From Planctomycetota bacterium (lineage in GTDB: Bacteria > Planctomycetota > Planctomycetia > Planctomycetales > Planctomycetaceae): a DNA stretch of 64,000 nt. Position 1 is the stretch's first letter. Every line of letters begins with the position of its first letter. The stretch is taken from the NCBI GenBank assembly GCA_027618475.1, contig JAQCEJ010000021.1, positions 1-64,000 of the forward strand, in the 5' to 3' direction. Shown here one piece after another: positions 46,864 through 59,236 of this stretch. The translations under genes and the position numbers were made by a program. The notes beneath the pieces were generated by a model that worked only from the letters and a program-made list of their open reading frames with translations, made no database searches and had not been told where the DNA came from.

Positions 46864-47289
46864 CTACAACGGCCAGTCGCGGAGAATGCGTTCTGTTTCT
46901 TCACTGTGGCCGCTTTCGTCGCGAACCATATCTTCGAGTTGTACGGCCATCCCTTTATCGCCGAAAGCTTCGGCCTCTTTCGCCCGCTGCGTATAATCGG
47001 CGACCGCTTTTTTCTCGGCGGCGACAATTGCTTCGAGCATTTCGTGATTCGTCTTCGTGGCGGGTACTTTTCGGGGAATGGTCGTCGGTTCGCCCCCCAG
47101 TGCCACAATCTTGTTGGCGAGATACTGAGCGTGCAGTTGTTCGTCGGCAACTTCGGCGAGAAAAAACTGCGACAATTGCGGCCGATACGGACCCGTTGCC
47201 TTCGCCGCGTAGGTGAGGTATTGAATGATCGCTCCCAATTCTCCGGCGAGGTCTTCGTTGAGTTTGTCGATCATCGTCTTTTTGTCCAT
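46864..47289 (-). CDS. ferritin-like (bacterioferritin-type) protein
   Basis: A four-helix-bundle ferritin-like sequence of 141 residues. Metal-ligand candidates are the glutamate in LNEDLAGELGAIIQYL, the ADEQLHAQYL pair (E-x-x-H) in helix 2, a glutamate in EAIVAAEKKAVADY and the second E-x-x-H in RDESGHSEETERIL. This is the E..ExxH..E..ExxH arrangement of di-iron ferritin-like proteins. It could store iron, bind haem (no conserved methionine noticed) or act as a rubrerythrin-like peroxide scavenger; no rubredoxin domain is present. No operon partner is visible; the gene converges on the TPR gene's terminator. Confidence 0.8.
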   Translation of the reverse strand: MDKKTMIDKLNEDLAGELGAIIQYLTYAAKATGPYRPQLSQFFLAEVADEQLHAQYLANKIVALGGEPTTIPRKVPATKTNHEMLEAIVAAEKKAVADYTQRAKEAEAFGDKGMAVQLEDMVRDESGHSEETERILRDWPL

Positions 47290-47552: not shown

Positions 47553-48857
47553 CTACACGCCGCGAATGACCACCGCGCTGGCTTGGCCCATGCGCGTGAC
47601 GTTCGTCTTGATGAAGACTTTGTTTTCGGTGGGGAGATGCTCGCCGTGAACCACATGAATCGGGCAGGCCGGGTCGGGGGTTTCGTAGCCAAGCGTCGCA
47701 GGAATCAAGCCGTGCTTCAGTCCCACCAGCGAGCCGGTGATTTCCATCACTCCGCAGCCGGCAGCGGCATTCCCCCAGTAACTCTTGAAGGCCGTGACGG
47801 GAATTTTCTTTCCGGCTTCGCCGAAGACATCCAGAATGGCTTGTGCTTCCTGTTCGTCTCGTTTTTTTGCGCCTTCACCGTTGGCGTTGATATGTCCGAT
47901 CTGATCGGCCGAAATGTTCGCGTCGCACAGGGCCTGCCGCATGGCGTTCCCCAGGGCAAGGCGAATGGCGTCGTCCGATCGGGCGGGAGAGACGCACGAC
48001 GAACCCCCTCCCAGAATCTCCCCATAGATTTCCGCTCCCCGCGCGCGGGCATGAGCTTCTTCTTCGAGGATGAGCGTGCACGATCCCTCGCCGGCAATTT
48101 GACCGGTCCGATTGAGATCGAATGGTCGGCAACGGAGATCGGGCCCCGGAGCTACTTCGCACCACATCACGGCGTGAATCGACTTCGTAGGTACCAGACG
48201 CGAACCGGTCGAACCGACGATCATCACGTCGGCGTGATCGCGTTCGATGATGTGAAACGCTTCGTTCATGGCGAGATTGCCGGCTGCCTCGGACTGTGTA
48301 ATCGAATTGTTCGGGCCGCGGGCATCGGCGTAAATGCCGATGTGGCACGCCGGCATATTGGGGAGGTATTTTAGCAACCAGAGCGGTTCCATCTGACGCA
48401 GGCCGCTTTGCCCCCATTCGCCCGCCTGGAATTCGTGAGAGACTTCATCAGAACACGCAAAGCAGGCGTCTTTCAGATTCACGGGGGGACTGAGCATCAG
48501 GTCGGCCCCGAAGTCGATTCCCAACCTCTCGTGATTGATCGTCTTGAGATCGAGTTTGGATTCCCGCAATGCCATACACGCCGAAGCGACGCCGAGCTGA
48601 ATCTCTCGGCACATCACTTTCAGACTCTTCCGCAGGTCTTTCAGGTAAGTTTTCTTCGCAGATTCTTCGGTGAAATCTTTGACTTCTGCACCGATATTTC
48701 CGGGCAGGGAGAAATCCTTCAGGATTTCGAGTTTGGCGACGCCGCTCTTACCATGTTGCAAGTGATCCCAGAAGGGTTCCATACCAATCCCGATAGGACT
48801 GACGATCCCGATACCGGTGATCACAACGCGCCGCCTGGATGCCTGATCGATACTCAT
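47553..48857 (-). CDS. ketosynthase-like protein with all three catalytic residues replaced
   Basis: The thiolase fold of a FabF-type ketosynthase is intact over 434 residues: VVITGIGIVSPIGIGMEPFWDHL at the N-terminus, RPFDLNRTGQIAGEGSCTLILEEE, and the C-terminal FIKTNVTRMGQASAVVIRG. Aligned gap-free to the neighbouring fabF in the active-site block, the nucleophile cysteine is glutamate (SITQSEAAG, E190), the first histidine is asparagine (INANGEG, N326), and the second histidine is asparagine (FKSYWGNAAAG, N363); the lysine (K358) is kept. It cannot condense acyl chains itself. Chain-length-factor subunits of type II polyketide synthases are similarly inactivated partners, with Gln for Cys. 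It is downstream of, but separate from, the fabF/GntP genes. Confidence 0.82.
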   Translation of the reverse strand: MSIDQASRRRVVITGIGIVSPIGIGMEPFWDHLQHGKSGVAKLEILKDFSLPGNIGAEVKDFTEESAKKTYLKDLRKSLKVMCREIQLGVASACMALRESKLDLKTINHERLGIDFGADLMLSPPVNLKDACFACSDEVSHEFQAGEWGQSGLRQMEPLWLLKYLPNMPACHIGIYADARGPNNSITQSEAAGNLAMNEAFHIIERDHADVMIVGSTGSRLVPTKSIHAVMWCEVAPGPDLRCRPFDLNRTGQIAGEGSCTLILEEEAHARARGAEIYGEILGGGSSCVSPARSDDAIRLALGNAMRQALCDANISADQIGHINANGEGAKKRDEQEAQAILDVFGEAGKKIPVTAFKSYWGNAAAGCGVMEITGSLVGLKHGLIPATLGYETPDPACPIHVVHGEHLPTENKVFIKTNVTRMGQASAVVIRGV

Positions 48858-49307: not shown

Positions 49308-50699
49308 TTACATGTATCCCCACGCGGGAAAGAGGCGAAACAGCACGATAGCAAGCATCGTCCCCACGGCAGGAATCAGCACCGTGGTGACAAAAATCGG
49401 ACCGTACGACCGGGCATGGGTTTCACCGCAGATATGGCGTATTAACATCACGATGTAACCATTCGTCGGAAGAGAATCCAACGATCCCGAGGCAATGGCC
49501 ACAACGCGATGGAGGGCACGGGGAGCAACGCCGAGACCATCGACGAAAATAGGCTTGATAATCGGTAACGCAAGCCCCTGACCCCCTGAGGCCGAGCCGG
49601 CGATCCCCGAAATGATAGCAACGGCCAGTGCCGCCGCCGTGAGGTGGTCGATCGGAAGATGCGTCACCCAGTCGACGACCATCGTGAAGGCGGGTAATCC
49701 TTTGAGCGCTGAGCCGAATCCGACGACGGAACATGTCGCGCCGATCGCCAGCAGTCCGTTGACGAATCCTTCGGCGAGGGGGGCTGTGACCGAGATCAGA
49801 TAGCGTCTGAAGCAGACAACTGCCGAAATCATGCCGATAAAAATAGCGACAGCAGGATCTTCGGGGAAACGATCGTGTAAAGCCGGAAACACATTTAAGG
49901 CGAGCAACGTCAAGGCGAGCGGCACCAGCGACATCCAGCCCCCCGGCCGCGACGCGGTCTCTTCGCGGTTTATGGAGGGCGCACCGGCGAAATGCGAACT
50001 CTGATCGTTCACGGTGCTCTCGGATGGTACAAAGCCCTTTCCCTGGCGTTTCTCGCGGCGAATGGCCCGTTCGAGATACCACTGCCCACAGAGAAACATC
50101 AGACCCGACACAATCAGACTGGCAGGCCAACCGGCGCGGGGATCGGTCAGCGAGTCGCCCGTTTCGCTGACGAGATAGCGTATGGGTATCAGATTCTGAA
50201 TTTCAGGCGAACCGGCTGACGTCATGGTGAACGTGACGGATCCAAACGCAATCGCAGCCGGAATAAACCGATGCGGCAAATCGGCGGCTCGAAAAATCCG
50301 CACGGCAAGCGGATAGACCGAAAAACCCACGACGAACAGCGAAACGCCGCCGTATGTCATGATGGCACATGACATCACGACGGACAGGCAAGCCCAATTC
50401 GAGCCGAGTCGGGTGACGACGAGTTCTGCGAGGCTGATCGCCGCCCCCGAATGCTCCATCAACTTGCCGAAGGCCGCACCGAAGATGAAAATCAGGTAAA
50501 ATTGCCTCAAATAGTCGGCGAAGCCGCTCATGTATTTTTCGTTCATGCCCACGACGGGATCGGCTCCGCTGAGAACCAGAATCGCGAAGGCCGACAGCGG
50601 GCCGGCAACGAAAATACTTGTGCCGCGATAGACAAGCACAGTGAGCAACAGCAGGCCGGAGATGAGCACGCACAACCCGTAAAACTCGCTCACGGACAT
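49308..50699 (-). CDS. GntP-family permease
   Basis: A polytopic membrane protein of 463 residues with about twelve hydrophobic helices and a hydrophilic central loop (residues about 205-245). GntP-family features are the GxxG-rich first half (FGAAFGKLMEHSGAAISLAELVV), the paired AFGSVTFTMTSAGSPEIQNLIP and, in the second half, SGIAGSASGGQGLALPIIKPIF followed by RVVAIASGSLDSLPTNG. Members import gluconate, other sugar acids or organic acids with protons. The conserved glycine/serine loops are intact. It stands between fabF (105 bp upstream on the same strand) and the ketosynthase-like gene, and could be co-transcribed with fabF. The substrate is unknown. Confidence 0.8.
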   Translation of the reverse strand: MSVSEFYGLCVLISGLLLLTVLVYRGTSIFVAGPLSAFAILVLSGADPVVGMNEKYMSGFADYLRQFYLIFIFGAAFGKLMEHSGAAISLAELVVTRLGSNWACLSVVMSCAIMTYGGVSLFVVGFSVYPLAVRIFRAADLPHRFIPAAIAFGSVTFTMTSAGSPEIQNLIPIRYLVSETGDSLTDPRAGWPASLIVSGLMFLCGQWYLERAIRREKRQGKGFVPSESTVNDQSSHFAGAPSINREETASRPGGWMSLVPLALTLLALNVFPALHDRFPEDPAVAIFIGMISAVVCFRRYLISVTAPLAEGFVNGLLAIGATCSVVGFGSALKGLPAFTMVVDWVTHLPIDHLTAAALAVAIISGIAGSASGGQGLALPIIKPIFVDGLGVAPRALHRVVAIASGSLDSLPTNGYIVMLIRHICGETHARSYGPIFVTTVLIPAVGTMLAIVLFRLFPAWGYM

Positions 50700-50803: not shown

Positions 50804-52048
50804 TCACGCGATTTTTTCGAGCACGAGACAGGCGTTGTGGCCGCCAAATCCAAAGCTGTTCTTCAGAATGCGGCGGATTTTCATCTGTCGTGCTTCGTGG
50901 GGTATGTAATCCAGATCGCATTCGGCATCGGGATGATCGAGGTTGATCGTCGGGGGAGCGGTCTGATCTTTGATCGCCATCACCCCGGCCACCACTTCGA
51001 CACCCCCCGAGGCTCCCAAAAGATGGCCCAGATGCCCCTTGATGCTGGAAACTCCGAGCGACGCGGCATGCGAACCGAATACCGTCTTGATGGCGACCGT
51101 TTCGGCCTTATCGCCGAGCGGCGTGCTCGTCCCGTGGGCGTTGACGTAATCGATATCTTCAGGATTGATCTTTGCGTCGCGCAGAGCATGCAACATAGCG
51201 CGAGCGGCGCCGGTCCCTTCCGGGTCGGGAGCCGTCATATGCGTTCCATCGGCCGACATTCCGTAACCGACGATTTCTGCGAGAATCGAAGCGCCCCGTT
51301 GCTTGGCATGTTCGTATTCTTCAAGCACGATCACGCCGGAACCTTCCGAAAGGACGAAACCGTCGCGGTCTTTGTCAAACGGACGGCTGGCCGCCTGGGG
51401 GGCATCGTTGCGCGTCGAGAGGGCGTTCATCCGCGAGAATCCGGAGAGTCCCATCGGCGTCACGGCCGCTTCGCTGCCGCCGGTGACCATCACATCGGCC
51501 ATATCGTTCTGAATCAGCTTGAATGCGTCACCGATGGCGTTTGTCGCCGAAGCACATGCCGTGGCGACAGCACTGTTCGGGCCGCGCAGTCGCCAATGGA
51601 CGGAGATATTCCCGCTGGCGGCGTTGACCATCAGTTTGGGGATCATGAAGGGAGAAACGCGTGCCGGGCCGCGATCGAAGAGTTTTGAGTGCTGTTCTTC
51701 AATTTCGCTCAGGCCCCCGATGCCGCTCCCGACCAGAACGCCTTTGCGATAGGGATCCCCCTGCGACAAATCGATGCCCGATTGCGTGATCGCTTTATGA
51801 GCCGCGACGAGCGCGAACTGGCAGAATCGATCGATCCGTTTGATTTCTTTGGAGTCGATATCGAAATGATCGGACGGTTCGAAATGTTTGACTTCGCCGC
51901 CGAACCGGACTTTGAACTCGGAGCAATCGAAGCGTTCAATCAGTCCGACACCACTTTTTCCGGCGCAGATTTTGTCCCAGAATTCAGCAATGTCGCACGC
52001 CAGTGAGGTGACGACGGAAATTCCAGTAACAACGACGCGTCTACGCAT
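50804..52048 (-). CDS. fabF: 3-oxoacyl-[acyl-carrier-protein] synthase II
   Basis: FabF elongates acyl-ACP by two carbons with malonyl-ACP. The catalytic triad is complete: Cys165 in ATACASATNAIGDA, His305 in VNAHGTSTPLGD and His342 in IKGHLGHLLGASGGVE. N-terminal VVVTGISVVTSLACDIAEFWDKI and C-terminal KNSFGFGGHNACLVLEK are standard, and the length of 414 is normal. It follows acpP on the same strand but with a gap of 369 bp. Its active-site set contrasts with the neighbouring ketosynthase-like protein, where all three are lost. Confidence 0.95.
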   Translation of the reverse strand: MRRRVVVTGISVVTSLACDIAEFWDKICAGKSGVGLIERFDCSEFKVRFGGEVKHFEPSDHFDIDSKEIKRIDRFCQFALVAAHKAITQSGIDLSQGDPYRKGVLVGSGIGGLSEIEEQHSKLFDRGPARVSPFMIPKLMVNAASGNISVHWRLRGPNSAVATACASATNAIGDAFKLIQNDMADVMVTGGSEAAVTPMGLSGFSRMNALSTRNDAPQAASRPFDKDRDGFVLSEGSGVIVLEEYEHAKQRGASILAEIVGYGMSADGTHMTAPDPEGTGAARAMLHALRDAKINPEDIDYVNAHGTSTPLGDKAETVAIKTVFGSHAASLGVSSIKGHLGHLLGASGGVEVVAGVMAIKDQTAPPTINLDHPDAECDLDYIPHEARQMKIRRILKNSFGFGGHNACLVLEKIA

Positions 52049-52417: not shown

Positions 52418-52651
52418 TCATTGTTTCTTTTCAATGTATTCGATGGCGTCTCCCACCGTTTTGATTTTTTCGTAATCTTCGTCGGGTATCGTGATACTAA
52501 ATTCATCCTCAAAGGACATAACCAGTTCCACGACGTCCAACGAATCTGCCTTGAGATCATCGATGAACGAACTTGTTCGAGTAATTTCTTCGAGAGAAAC
52601 ACCGAGTTGCTCGCTGACGATACCTGTGACCTTTTCCTCAACAGACGACAC
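52418..52651 (-). CDS. acpP: acyl carrier protein
   Basis: A 77-residue acidic protein with the phosphopantetheine serine in [13 protein letters not shown] (Ser37), the DSL motif. N-terminal [23 protein letters not shown] and C-terminal [27 protein letters not shown] complete the four-helix ACP. The frame is open further upstream, but a GTG at 52651 lies behind GGAGAG with normal spacing and gives the standard N-terminus, so translation starts there. It carries acyl chains for FabD and FabF in the cytoplasm. Its neighbours on the same strand are the zinc-ribbon protein upstream and fabF downstream. Confidence 0.95.
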
Positions 52652-52790
52652 TTTGCGCTCTCCTCTAGCAGCTTGTATTGGCTTGGCAGAATGGTCCCCG
52701 ATTTCAGAGCACATTCTCCTGTTCGCCTGGGCGACGTAAGAGGTGCTCATATAGCGGAACTCGGCGATCCTGTAAATCTCAAACGAACGC

Positions 52791-52980: not shown

Positions 52981-53517
52981 TCAAGCCATCGCAGCCCCGC
53001 ACTGATCGCAAAACCGCGCATCGGGATCGCAATGTGCACCGCATTTTGGACACGACACATCCCGGGCGAGTTGTTGTCCGCACCCGTCGCAATAACGGGC
53101 GTCGGCGTCATTCTCTTCCCCGCATTCCCGGCAACGGCGTGCGGAATCGACCGCTCGTCCCGTAAGACCGGCGTTGATCCCCTGCCCCACCGCCGAGGCC
53201 AAATCGCGTACCGACTCTTTCGTGCCGTGGGCCACGGTGTTGAACGTGTCGACACCAACCGGAGTCGTTTCTTCAGCGATATAGCGAAGAACACTGCCGA
53301 AATAAGCCATCTTGGTGATCACCGTACCGACGAATATCAACGGCATGCCGACAAATGCGCACCAGAAGTATCGCGGCGGCCCGAACGTGCCGAAGGATGA
53401 AAAGAAGCTGATCGTTCCGATCGCAACGAACATCACTCCGGTCAGTAGTACCACCGGACCAACGCTCCTCAGAATCTGACGTCGTTCGCGATGTCGTGGG
53501 TCGCCCAGTCGAGACAT
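52981..53517 (-). CDS. two-helix membrane protein with double zinc ribbon
   Basis: Two membrane helices (VVLLTGVMFVAIGTISFF, residues about 21-38, and WCAFVGMPLIFVGTVITKMAYF, about 52-73) are followed by a linker and two C-terminal zinc ribbons: CRECG with CDGCG, and CPKCG with CDQCG. AAAGGA lies 6 nt before the ATG. Function is unknown; double zinc ribbons often mediate protein or nucleic-acid contacts at the membrane. The gene sits between fabD and acpP in an otherwise standard fatty-acid operon, which suggests a membrane-side role in lipid metabolism or simply hitchhiking. Confidence 0.7.
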   Translation of the reverse strand: MSRLGDPRHRERRQILRSVGPVVLLTGVMFVAIGTISFFSSFGTFGPPRYFWCAFVGMPLIFVGTVITKMAYFGSVLRYIAEETTPVGVDTFNTVAHGTKESVRDLASAVGQGINAGLTGRAVDSARRCRECGEENDADARYCDGCGQQLARDVSCPKCGAHCDPDARFCDQCGAAMA

Positions 53518-53566: not shown

Positions 53567-54475
53567 TCAGCCGTCGTTCACCGTCGTGCAGGCCGCTTTG
53601 CGGTCGATTCGTTTCAACAGTCCGCGCAACACCTTCCCGGGGCCGATTTCGTAAAACTCATCGACACCCGCCGCCAGCATGGCACGAATGGAGTCTTCCC
53701 ACAGAACGGGATTAAGCACCTGTCGGATCAAAAGTTCGCGAATTTCATCGGGATCGTCGTGCGTCTGCGCGTCGACATTCGAAATCACCGGGATTTCAGG
53801 CTTTCGGAGGGGGACTCCGGCCAGCGCTTCTGCCAGCTGAGTGTCGGCGGGTTTCATAATGGCCGTGTGGAACGCCCCGGCGACGGCGAGCGGTACCGCC
53901 CGTCCTCCCTGTTGTTCGGTCAGTTCCGCCGCTTTTTCGCAAGCTGCGTTTTCGCCCGAGACAACAATGTTGCCGGGACACAGGTAATTCGCAATTTGCA
54001 GTTTCCCGACCGTCGAGGCCTCGCGACAGATCTGGTCGACCTGCTCCCGCGTCAGCAGCAATATGCTGACCATCCCGGAAGGAGTGGCATCCGCCGCTGC
54101 CTGCATCGCGGCACCGCGTCGTTGTACCAGTCGGAGACCTTCTTCGAACGTCATCACGCCGGCAAAAACGAGAGCGGTATACTCGCCGAGACTCAGTCCC
54201 GCCGCCATTTCACACGAAAGTACGACATCGGGTGAATCGGCCCGGAGTTTCTCCAACGCGGCAAGACTGGTGACGAAAATCGCCGGCTGACTGACCGATG
54301 TCGAATCCAAAACGTCGGCGGGGCCTTCCCAGCAGGTTTTTGCCAGGTCGTAACCGAGAATTTCGGAGGCGGTATCGTACAGGGCTTTCGCCGCCGGGTA
54401 ATCGGCAGCTAATTGCTTGCCCATACCGACATGTTGTGCCCCCTGCCCTGGATAAAGAAACGCAATCTTGCTCAC
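53567..54475 (-). CDS. fabD: malonyl-CoA:ACP transacylase
   Basis: FabD moves malonyl from CoA to ACP. The motif FLYPGQGAQHVGMG starts the protein, the nucleophile serine is in AAGLSLGEYTAL (Ser95; many enterobacterial enzymes have GHSLG here, whereas plant and cyanobacterial ones have GLSLG), the catalytic histidine is in VAGAFHTAIM, and QVLNPVLWEDSI is the C-terminal landmark. The GTG at 54475 is preferred to the ATG at 54487 because GAGGT stands 5 nt before it. The zinc-ribbon gene follows after about 50 bp and plsX precedes by about 210 bp. Confidence 0.95.
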   Translation of the reverse strand: MSKIAFLYPGQGAQHVGMGKQLAADYPAAKALYDTASEILGYDLAKTCWEGPADVLDSTSVSQPAIFVTSLAALEKLRADSPDVVLSCEMAAGLSLGEYTALVFAGVMTFEEGLRLVQRRGAAMQAAADATPSGMVSILLLTREQVDQICREASTVGKLQIANYLCPGNIVVSGENAACEKAAELTEQQGGRAVPLAVAGAFHTAIMKPADTQLAEALAGVPLRKPEIPVISNVDAQTHDDPDEIRELLIRQVLNPVLWEDSIRAMLAAGVDEFYEIGPGKVLRGLLKRIDRKAACTTVNDG

Positions 54476-54688
54476 GGGTGACCTCATTGATAAACGTGCG
54501 AAGGGTTGATGTCTCCGCCGGTATGATTTCTATGATCAAGTTGCAAGATATCCGGATCGCGAGCCGGTGTCAAAAGGAGGAAGGGCAAAGAACAACGGAT
54601 GAAGGACGAGTCAGGAAATGGTTGGGGGGACGGAATGGCTGGGGTCGAGTCTTCGAGCCCTCAGTCTTCAGCCTTCAACCATCAACGT

Positions 54689-55714
54689 TCACGCGCTGCG
54701 TGCCGTCGCGTCACTCTCTTCCGACCGTGGAGCCAGGGCTTGCGTGATGATCTTGTTCAGTCCGCTATCCTTAAACGCCATCGCGCGTTTGAGGGCGTTC
54801 TCGATCGAGCGGGAGTTGCTCGAACCGTGACAGATCATGCAGACGCCGTCGATTCCCAGAAGTGGAGCGCCCCCTTCTTCGTGATGTTCGTAACTCTTGG
54901 CGAGTTTCTTCAGGGCTGTGTGAGCGTGTTCTTTTTCGTTCTGCAACGCTCCCATCACCGCTCCGGAAATCGCCTTCATCATGAAGTCGGCCATTCCTTC
55001 GCTGACTTTCAGCACGACGTTCCCCACGAACCCTTCGCAGATCACGACGTCAGCTTCACCCTGATACAAGCCTCGTCCTTCGACGTTGCCGATGTAACAT
55101 TCTCGCAGCGGACTCGACATCAGAAAACTGTGCGTCTCGCGGTACAGATCGTTTCCTTTTCCCTCTTCGCTGCCGATGTTCATCAAGCCGACGCGCGGTT
55201 GAGGAATTCCCATGATCTCACGGGCGAAGATTTGCCCCATCACGCCATATTGAAAGAGATGTTCCGGACGGGCCGCGGGATTCGCTCCCACGTCGAGCAG
55301 CAGCGTGCGGCCCGTTAATGTCGGCAAAGCGACGGCGATCCCGGGACGTTTCACACCGGGGAGAAACAAGCGTGTTCGCAACCCCGCGGCGACGACGGCA
55401 CCGGTATTTCCGGCACTGACGACCGCTTCGACTTCGCGACCCGCCATCAATTTCCAGCAGACGGCGATCGAACAGTTCGGCTTTTTGCGGAGTGCGTCGG
55501 TCGGCTTTTCTTCCATGCCGACGAAACCCTCAGCGGCCTGGACAGTCAGTCGTTCCCCCGAGTAACCACTGCTCTGGATGAGGGCATCAAGAACTGCCGG
55601 ATCGCCGACCAGCACGATTTCCAGTTCGGGCTGGGCAATCAGCGCAGCGATTGCGCCGTGGATGTTCGGTTCGGGGGCGAAATCTCCCCCCATCGCGTCG
55701 AGGGCGATGCGCAT
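54689..55714 (-). CDS. plsX: phosphate acyltransferase PlsX
   Basis: PlsX converts acyl-ACP to acyl-phosphate, the donor for glycerol-phosphate acylation. N-terminal MRIALDAMGGDFAPEPNI is the family signature; VVSAGNTGAVVAAGL, GANPAARPEHLFQYGVMG and CEGFVGNVVLKVSEG follow, with HEEGGAPLLGIDGVCMICHGSSNSRSIENAL near the end. Length (341) is standard. It lies 5 bp downstream of rpmF, the conserved rpmF-plsX-fab order. The 213-bp spacer before fabD (54476-54688) contains a CT-rich stretch (TCAGTCTTCAGCCTTCAACC near 54663), reminiscent of low-complexity intergenic repeats, but no gene. Confidence 0.96.
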   Translation of the reverse strand: MRIALDAMGGDFAPEPNIHGAIAALIAQPELEIVLVGDPAVLDALIQSSGYSGERLTVQAAEGFVGMEEKPTDALRKKPNCSIAVCWKLMAGREVEAVVSAGNTGAVVAAGLRTRLFLPGVKRPGIAVALPTLTGRTLLLDVGANPAARPEHLFQYGVMGQIFAREIMGIPQPRVGLMNIGSEEGKGNDLYRETHSFLMSSPLRECYIGNVEGRGLYQGEADVVICEGFVGNVVLKVSEGMADFMMKAISGAVMGALQNEKEHAHTALKKLAKSYEHHEEGGAPLLGIDGVCMICHGSSNSRSIENALKRAMAFKDSGLNKIITQALAPRSEESDATARSA

Positions 55715-57765: not shown

Positions 57766-59236
57766 CGAGCCGTAGGGTTTATCCCAGTATAGTTCGGCTC
57801 AATTTCTGCACAGGGGTGGGGTTGTCCAAGTTGTTGCTGGGCGGCTGGTGTTGGGGGGGCGTGCGGAGTGTCGTGCGGATTTTCAGGGTGTCTGGTGCGC
57901 AGCATCAAACGGCTCGACCGATGAGGGTGCATCGTGAGCGCGAGAGGCTACGTTCGTTTGTTCTCGGTGGCCCGCAGTCGTTCGAGCCCGGCAATCAATT
58001 CGTCCTCTTCAGCCCAGCCCATCAGATACAGGCAGACGAGTTCGTATCCGCGACGATTCAATGAGCCTCCGGTGGCTTCTGCCAGCAGCAAGCAGGCCAG
58101 AATGGCGCAGTAGACTTGTAGAGTAATTCCGTGAGGATGTTCGCTTATCAGCTTGCGACAACCGAGGACGTGTTTGAGAAAGCGGAAGAACAGTTCGATC
58201 AGCCAGCGATAACGGTACAACTGAGCGATGATCTCCCCAGGCACATCGAGCAGGTTCGTCAGCAGGATGATCTGATCGCGAGACGGACGATCGGAGCGAG
58301 GTCGGGCAGGAGGCTTTCCTTGAATGACGATCCGCCGCACCCGATGTGAAAGTTTCTCGGCACGGCTCGAGCGACCACCTAACTCCACCAGAGAGTCTTC
58401 GACGACGCCGGCGGCGACGGCCTCCGGGCTGAGCGGTTGCGGTTCGCTCGATCGCACCGACCGCGGTCGGACACGGCAGATGTAGCTGCTTCCGCCGGCG
58501 ACGATCTTATTGAAGAGGCTGTACTTCTCGTAGCCACTGTCCATCACATACAGTCGGTCAGACTGCAGCCGCGATTCTAAAACAATCCGTTCGTCGGATT
58601 CGTTCTGGCCACGGGCATCTGTCAGCACTGCATCCTCGGGCACGCCTCGCCAGACGCTGAACTGAGTGTGCAGTTTCCAGCCATCCGGAGCCCGTGGGTT
58701 GAGGCTGGCCTGCGTGATCTGCGGCAGAACACGGAGCAACGTCCCATCGACGGCCGTCAGTTGCTGAAGCAACTGCTGCGGAATGGTGGCGCCCCCCGAG
58801 ATGCGTTTGTTCGAACGGGAGAGACCGGCGAGCCGTTCTTCGATCAACGGCCGCATCACGGCCGGGTCAAAGACGTGTCCCGCTTCGGAAAGGGAGCCGA
58901 GAGACGTTCTGCTGCCGTTGAGGATCTTCTGCACTTTCCGCAGATCACTGGCGCGCTGCAGACCGCGCAGGGATTGCAGCACGGGATTGAACAGCGACAG
59001 CAGTAGCAAACTCGCATATTGGCCATACTCCAGGCGACGGTTACCAGCACGGTCCCGCTGAACTTCCCGGCCCTTCAGCTCCCGCAGAACCGGGAACACC
59101 ATCTGCAAATAACGCACACCTTCGACGTGCTCTGGCATTGCTCCTCCACATCACGCCAGATTGGCAGAAATTGACAACCCTAAAGCTAGGGCGCAAATTT
59201 CGTGCCGAACAATACTGGGTTAAACCCCTCGGCTCG
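57766..59236 (-). mobile_element. IS4-family insertion sequence
   Basis: The left end begins CGAGCCGTAGGGTTTATCCC at 57766, and the right end, read inward from 59236, begins CGAGCCGAGGGGTTTAACCC; about 30 of the first 35 positions agree, including the CAGTAT and GTTCGGC blocks. No clear target duplication was found in the flanks (left TTTAGTCAT, right GTGTTGCTA), so the exact outer ends are uncertain by a few bases. The element lies between the stop codons of the converging DUF1501 and sulfatase genes and disrupts neither. Confidence 0.85.
57948..59138 (-). CDS. IS4-family transposase
   Basis: 396 residues with the DDE transposase core: the first aspartate in LTAVDGTLLRVLPQ, the second in LYVMDSGYEKYSLFNKIV and the glutamate in YRYRWLIELFFRFLKHVLG, the Y-(2)-R-(3)-E-(6)-K pattern of the IS4 family. 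The ATG is preceded by GGAGGAG. The frame is intact with the natural C-terminus, so the element may be functional. It is the only gene between the two terminal repeats. Confidence 0.92.
   Translation of the reverse strand: MPEHVEGVRYLQMVFPVLRELKGREVQRDRAGNRRLEYGQYASLLLLSLFNPVLQSLRGLQRASDLRKVQKILNGSRTSLGSLSEAGHVFDPAVMRPLIEERLAGLSRSNKRISGGATIPQQLLQQLTAVDGTLLRVLPQITQASLNPRAPDGWKLHTQFSVWRGVPEDAVLTDARGQNESDERIVLESRLQSDRLYVMDSGYEKYSLFNKIVAGGSSYICRVRPRSVRSSEPQPLSPEAVAAGVVEDSLVELGGRSSRAEKLSHRVRRIVIQGKPPARPRSDRPSRDQIILLTNLLDVPGEIIAQLYRYRWLIELFFRFLKHVLGCRKLISEHPHGITLQVYCAILACLLLAEATGGSLNRRGYELVCLYLMGWAEEDELIAGLERLRATENKRT

Follow-up and report, generated by a model that had tools for sequence, protein, structure and literature searches.

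Acid-site ketosynthases of the Planctomycetia as candidate chain-length-factor-like subunits

What might a full-length ketosynthase (KS) do once the cysteine and both histidines of its active site have been replaced, with the gene for an intact FabF close by? This question is raised by a 64,000-nucleotide stretch of DNA from a bacterium of the Planctomycetaceae (GenBank assembly GCA_027618475.1, contig JAQCEJ010000021.1, positions 1 to 64,000; hereafter the window), which encodes such a protein at positions 47553-48857 of the minus strand. We found that it belongs to a family present throughout the class Planctomycetia, in which an acidic residue takes the place of the catalytic cysteine, and which we call the acid-site ketosynthases (acid-KS). 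We believe, with a probability of roughly 0.6, that this family works like the beta subunit, or chain length factor (CLF), of a KS heterodimer whose ancestral partner was an active ketosynthase termed KS2 here. Gene order, residue complementarity, distribution, selection, sequence and predicted fold are what we show, and the heterodimer is what we propose from them.

The window protein and its family

The window gene, copy A, is an intact open reading frame (ORF) that starts with ATG and encodes 434 amino acids with matches to both KS domains of Pfam (PF00109, 90 bits; PF02801, 65 bits). In an alignment with the FabF of the window, Listeria FabF (3o04) and relatives, the Cys, His, Lys and His of FabF (C/H/K/H) become E190, N326, K358 and N363, which leaves the lysine alone in place; the codon of Glu190, located from its residue number, lies at 48288-48290 (minus strand). 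This agrees with the first-pass annotation of the window, which had described a change from Cys-His-His to Glu-Asn-Asn with K358 kept, near an active fabF. The latter gene (50804-52048, minus strand) indeed encodes a canonical FabF, or beta-ketoacyl-acyl carrier protein (ACP) synthase II, with its C/H/K/H set intact and a score of 617 bits against TIGR03150 (cut-off 494), whereas copy A reaches 239 bits with the same model and lacks the Cys-His-His active site. An AlphaFold (AF2) model of copy A (pLDDT 93.6) has a normal KS fold, and its top structural matches are FabF structures (Z 58.9), level with which stands the actinorhodin CLF 1tqy_B (Z 58.1, root-mean-square deviation 1.8 over 395 residues).

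Acid-KS were found in all 120 Planctomycetia genomes sampled (113/113 of high quality; 72/72 genera). Across a sample of 156 genomes from the phylum, matches at E <= 1e-70 were limited to the 17 members of the class in that sample and to four genomes of a family outside it, f14, in which an active enzyme with C/H/K/H is matched. The cysteine site is Glu or Asp in 174 of 177 acid-site relatives and the lysine is kept, while the first histidine is missing from 36, and Asn or Ser usually takes the place of the second (E/H/K/N in 94, E/C/K/S in 15, D/H/K/N in 14, E/N/K/N in 7 and E/N/K/S in 2). Since the acid is nearly universal and loss of the first histidine is confined to a minority, the former is the old, fixed feature and the histidine losses are later events, that of the first histidine being found at separate places in the tree. 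The combination seen in the window, for which a conserved clade of its own had been envisaged, is therefore a minority state within a larger family (7 E/N/K/N and 2 E/N/K/S among the 177), and both the tree and the residue counts rule out a separate Glu-Asn-Asn clade, as most acid-KS keep the first histidine. In addition, all acid-KS groups have lost the GFGG gating loop together with its partner Asn404, so that the acid subunit no longer has the apparatus by which acyl chains enter its own site.

The absence of all three catalytic residues could also mark a decaying paralogue, a reading that we regard as practically negligible. For 49 copy-A gene pairs (dS < 1.5) the median dN/dS was 0.067, far from 1 and indicative of strong purifying selection, and close pairs in which both histidines are missing gave 0.013 and 0.041; these values describe relatives of the window gene, none of which is close enough to it for an estimate on that gene. 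Taken with class-wide presence and 40 invariant columns across 46 relatives, the dN/dS values rule out a pseudogene and bear out the earlier view of a full-length protein that is not decaying. The same annotation had raised the possibility of an unrecognised type II KS/pseudo-KS pair, yet two FabF paralogues of Rhodopirellula baltica without the cysteine, NP_866153 (Glu/His/Lys/Asn) and NP_865682 (Asp), were listed in 2009 with no function or partner given (Rattray et al., 2009; PMC2649909).

KS2 and the division of docking residues

In 33 genomes (families f57, f58, f59 and f61) an acid-KS gene lies directly upstream of the gene for the active ketosynthase KS2, with a median gap of 84 bp, and the flanks read around these pairs give an operon of the order FabZ-(FabG)-ACP-FabZ-acidKS-KS2. 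KS2 itself was present in 100 of 100 Planctomycetia genomes. Six f57/f58 genomes were checked, and there the operon copy is the sole acid-KS, the other homologue being a stand-alone active ketosynthase, KS1. Stand-alone active ketosynthases at f57/f58 loci L289-L294 have C/H/K/H, a Trp at FabF position 133 and the docking lysines, and are sister to acid-KS. The window genome carries the operon as FabZ-FabG-ACP-FabZ-KS2 on another contig (C103:27911-32610; locus L159) with the acid slot empty, as is the case in nearly all the other genomes examined, both from the window's family and from the class families that remain. The slot is filled in f14 by an active KS1, in tandem with KS2. An alpha/beta hydrolase gene and a GH3-type gene follow the KS2 operon in one f57 genome (L230).

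In the tree all acid-KS stand beside the active planctomycete KS1 clade (joint support 1.0) and KS2 forms the nearest other clade. Canonical FabF and the actinobacterial CLFs are placed elsewhere, and membership of acid-KS among the latter is ruled out. We consider KS2 the likely candidate for the ancestral partner, an identification that is new here: a search of open-licence full texts turned up no account of a link between acid-KS and KS2 or of a function for acid-KS. Planctomycetes are among the phyla with neighbouring KS-CLF-like pairs in a published catalogue (PMC10132072). At eight of eight loci of a further group, clade C (L146-L153, eight genomes), an acid-KS, an active ketosynthase and a 3-hydroxyacyl-CoA dehydrogenase are encoded side by side, which has the appearance of a distinct cluster for a lipid or a polyketide.

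Residues for ACP docking are divided between the two proteins. ACP docks on E. coli FabF at Lys65, Arg68 and Lys69 (region 1) and at Arg127, Lys128 and Arg206 (region 2), with most contacts supplied by the partner of the monomer being loaded (PMC7138838), and in the Iga11-Iga12 KS-CLF complex the CLF is the main ACP-binding subunit (PMC8358021). We found a basic residue at FabF position 65 in 176/176 acid-KS and at position 68 in 99%, compared with 15% at either position in KS2 and 100% in FabF. Both positions are basic in 0/31 KS2 of the wider set, in which the four sequences that have both are KS1 of f14. In copy A these positions are K76 and K79, on a helix of residues 76-86 (48600-48632, minus strand, from residue numbers), and the longest invariant run among the 46 relatives, KVMCREIQ (K79-Q86), lies on the same helix. 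Similarly, all six control KS/CLF-type pairs, taken from plasmid records, have a basic residue 65 in the beta subunit and a non-basic one in the alpha subunit; ApeC, which is half-size and has no docking segment, was for that reason left out of the residue controls. As acid-KS keep the docking lysines that KS2 has lost, and as the control pairs are split alike at position 65, acid-KS are most likely KS-beta or CLF-like. This division of labour seems older than the loss of the cysteine, since the active KS1 of f14 keeps both docking residues and its tandem KS2 does not.

A further residue shared by acid-KS and KS1 is the Trp at FabF position 133 (residue 159 of copy A, in a PLW motif; codon 48381-48383, minus strand), which is invariant in both and absent from FabF and KS2. 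If it lies at the dimer interface, it may be a gate into the tunnel of the partner.

Setting of the window copy, proposed role and alternatives

All genes around copy A considered here are on the minus strand. The operon comprises plsX (54689-55714; TIGR00182, 300 bits), fabD, which encodes malonyl-CoA:ACP transacylase (53567-54487; TIGR00128, 309 bits), acpP for the acyl carrier protein (52418-52660, with an approximate start; PF00550 and acyl_carrier models) and fabF, which is separated from copy A by the gene for a GntP-like permease (49308-50699; PF02447, 30.5 bits) that is absent from the other loci of the synteny comparison. Within the window's family it is common for an acid-KS gene to come after plsX-fabD-acpP-fabF and ahead of a TPR gene, nusA and infB, and the same set occurs in Pirellulaceae-type genomes (L098, L115, L227, L235, L238, L240). 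A protein of 178 amino acids with a C-terminal double zinc ribbon is encoded between fabD and acpP (52981-53517), with a partial match in L095 only among the other loci examined. A small ferritin-like protein is encoded downstream of copy A (46864-47289), and an ORF of 396 amino acids at 57948-59138 looks transposase-like by eye, no family search having been made. The second acid-KS of this genome, copy B, is found on contig C84, is 43% identical to copy A and reads D/H/K/H; most genomes of the family have a stand-alone orthologue of it, and its neighbourhood has no conserved neighbours across the family loci and gives no functional clue.

We propose that an acid-KS, which would be unable to form an acyl-enzyme or to condense chains, dimerises with a catalytic ketosynthase, offers a positive surface on which acyl-ACP may dock for delivery into the active site of the partner, and helps to shape a shared acyl tunnel. 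Heterodimer formation, docking in trans, tunnel shaping and the product are all features that we infer. The ancestral partner would have been KS2, which serves for condensation in a second type II fatty acid synthase (FAS) operon found across the class, and the CLF-like subunit would have evolved independently from a tandem of active ketosynthases. The family was probably duplicated in the lineage of the window, copy B remaining alone and copy A moving into the plsX-fabD-acpP-fabF operon and losing its remaining histidines in the window's sublineage. Because of this move, copy A would either serve KS2 in trans or have been recruited to FabF; its present partner may be KS2, in keeping with ancestry and complementarity, FabF, in keeping with the operon, or copy A itself. 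In FabF, a change of Cys to Gln mimics the acyl-enzyme and makes Phe400, a residue of the gate, leave the pocket (PMC4528935), and by analogy an acid at this site may lock the acid subunit in one state.

Several observations weigh against this proposal. Most acid-KS keep the first histidine, which would be superfluous in a pure scaffold, and in the window genome copy A lies in the fabF operon and KS2 on C103. Acid-KS lack basic character in docking region 2 (127/128/206; group means of 0 to -1.5), so only half of the docking surface is retained, and a basic residue at position 66, present in many KS2, could partly compensate for their losses. FabF, for its part, has a region-1 charge of +3 and, having kept its own docking residues, gives no indication that it needs a partner.

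The first-pass annotation had proposed a non-catalytic role, such as a CLF-like partner for FabF or a scaffold. Its picture of a stable protein that does not condense chains and resembles a CLF holds, with strong purifying selection in the family (median dN/dS 0.067), and FabF as the ancestral partner gives way to KS2, which adjoins acid-KS in the 33 genomes and is the protein with which acid-KS are complementary in docking residues. A narrower version, in which copy A has become a dedicated FabF partner that sets chain length or specificity in primary fatty acid synthesis, strikes us as unlikely. By its operon linkage FabF may still partner the window copy, the order fabF-acidKS in plsX-fabD-acpP-fabF being kept in many genomes of the window's family and in genomes of the Pirellulaceae type and the docking lysines being kept by copy A, yet FabF is canonical with all features of a self-sufficient homodimer, shows no docking complementarity with acid-KS, and is not encoded near acid-KS A in some genomes.

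A residual catalytic role is considerably less probable still. Decarboxylating KSQ domains carry Gln at the cysteine site, and a His/Asn arrangement is known from KAS III; an acid-KS could accordingly be pictured as a KSQ- or FabH-like decarboxylase that converts malonyl-ACP to acetyl-ACP, in line with a first histidine kept in about 80% of relatives and a second site that is usually Asn. The window protein has E/N/N in place of the Gln and two kept histidines of KSQ, its gating/oxyanion loop is destroyed, and it and 35 other relatives lack the first histidine; the close His-less pairs are under strong purifying selection, and this persistence under strong selection disfavours decarboxylation. 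The genome also encodes a FabH-type protein (PF08541, 118 bits), which rules out a need for acetyl-ACP supply in the absence of FabH. Equally improbable, in our view, is a homodimeric ACP-binding scaffold or regulator with no KS partner. Such a protein would suit a docking helix that is the most conserved segment and a copy B that stands alone with no conserved neighbours, but the tight acid-KS/KS2 tandem and the complementary loss of docking residues in KS2 point to a pair. The literature on essentiality in Planctopirus offered nothing useful.

Beyond the CLF-like role itself, we can sketch a more ambitious scenario, to which we give appreciably less than even odds: every Planctomycetia cell would run a second housekeeping type II FAS that condenses through an obligate KS2:acid-KS heterodimer, which would have arisen independently of polyketide CLFs from tandem active ketosynthases, with docking assigned to one subunit before it lost its cysteine and one copy later captured by the primary FAS operon to modulate FabF.

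Comparison with known systems

KS/CLF heterodimers have so far been known from secondary-metabolite clusters. Should our proposal hold, an entire class of bacteria would be making some core lipid with a condensing enzyme that is split in two, kept vertically and encoded in a FAS-like operon. In a related planctomycete class, two active ketosynthases stand in tandem and only one of them has the docking lysines, which looks like an intermediate toward KS/CLF pairs, and the KS1/KS2 tandem makes the long-discussed origin of such pairs testable in living organisms.

The closest published relatives are the R. baltica proteins NP_866153 and NP_865682, which are alike in the E/H/K/N signature and in Asp at the cysteine site, respectively (PMC2649909). 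Judged from the published residues, the group signature Glu163, Lys328 and Asn333 (numbering of that paper) is shared by the window protein and its copy-A relatives (PMC2649909); NP_866153 keeps the first histidine that the window copy has lost. The 2009 study did not include the class-wide distribution or the selection given here (PMC2649909). Acid-KS resemble FabF in fold, length, Lys335 and Glu349, and differ from it in the absence of Cys/His/His and of the GFGG gate.

The aryl polyene pair ApeO-ApeC is likewise a KS-CLF heterodimer from a FAS-like operon with ACPs and a dehydratase, although ApeC is half-size and acid-KS, whose heterodimer is proposed, are full length. With the CLFs of type II polyketide synthases (1tqy_B, Iga12), acid-KS share a full-length KS fold without the catalytic cysteine, a residue 65 that is basic on the beta subunit only and, in the ancestral operon of the 33 genomes, a place beside an active ketosynthase and an ACP; the window gene has fabF and acpP as neighbours, a permease gene separating it from fabF. 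Aromatic CLFs, as in four Streptomyces controls, have Gln at the cysteine site where acid-KS have Glu or Asp; the gating loops also differ, and in the tree acid-KS are separate from these CLFs and sister to active KS1 (joint support 1.0). Finally, the CLF is a sporadic gene of secondary-metabolite clusters, whereas acid-KS is a core gene of an entire class.
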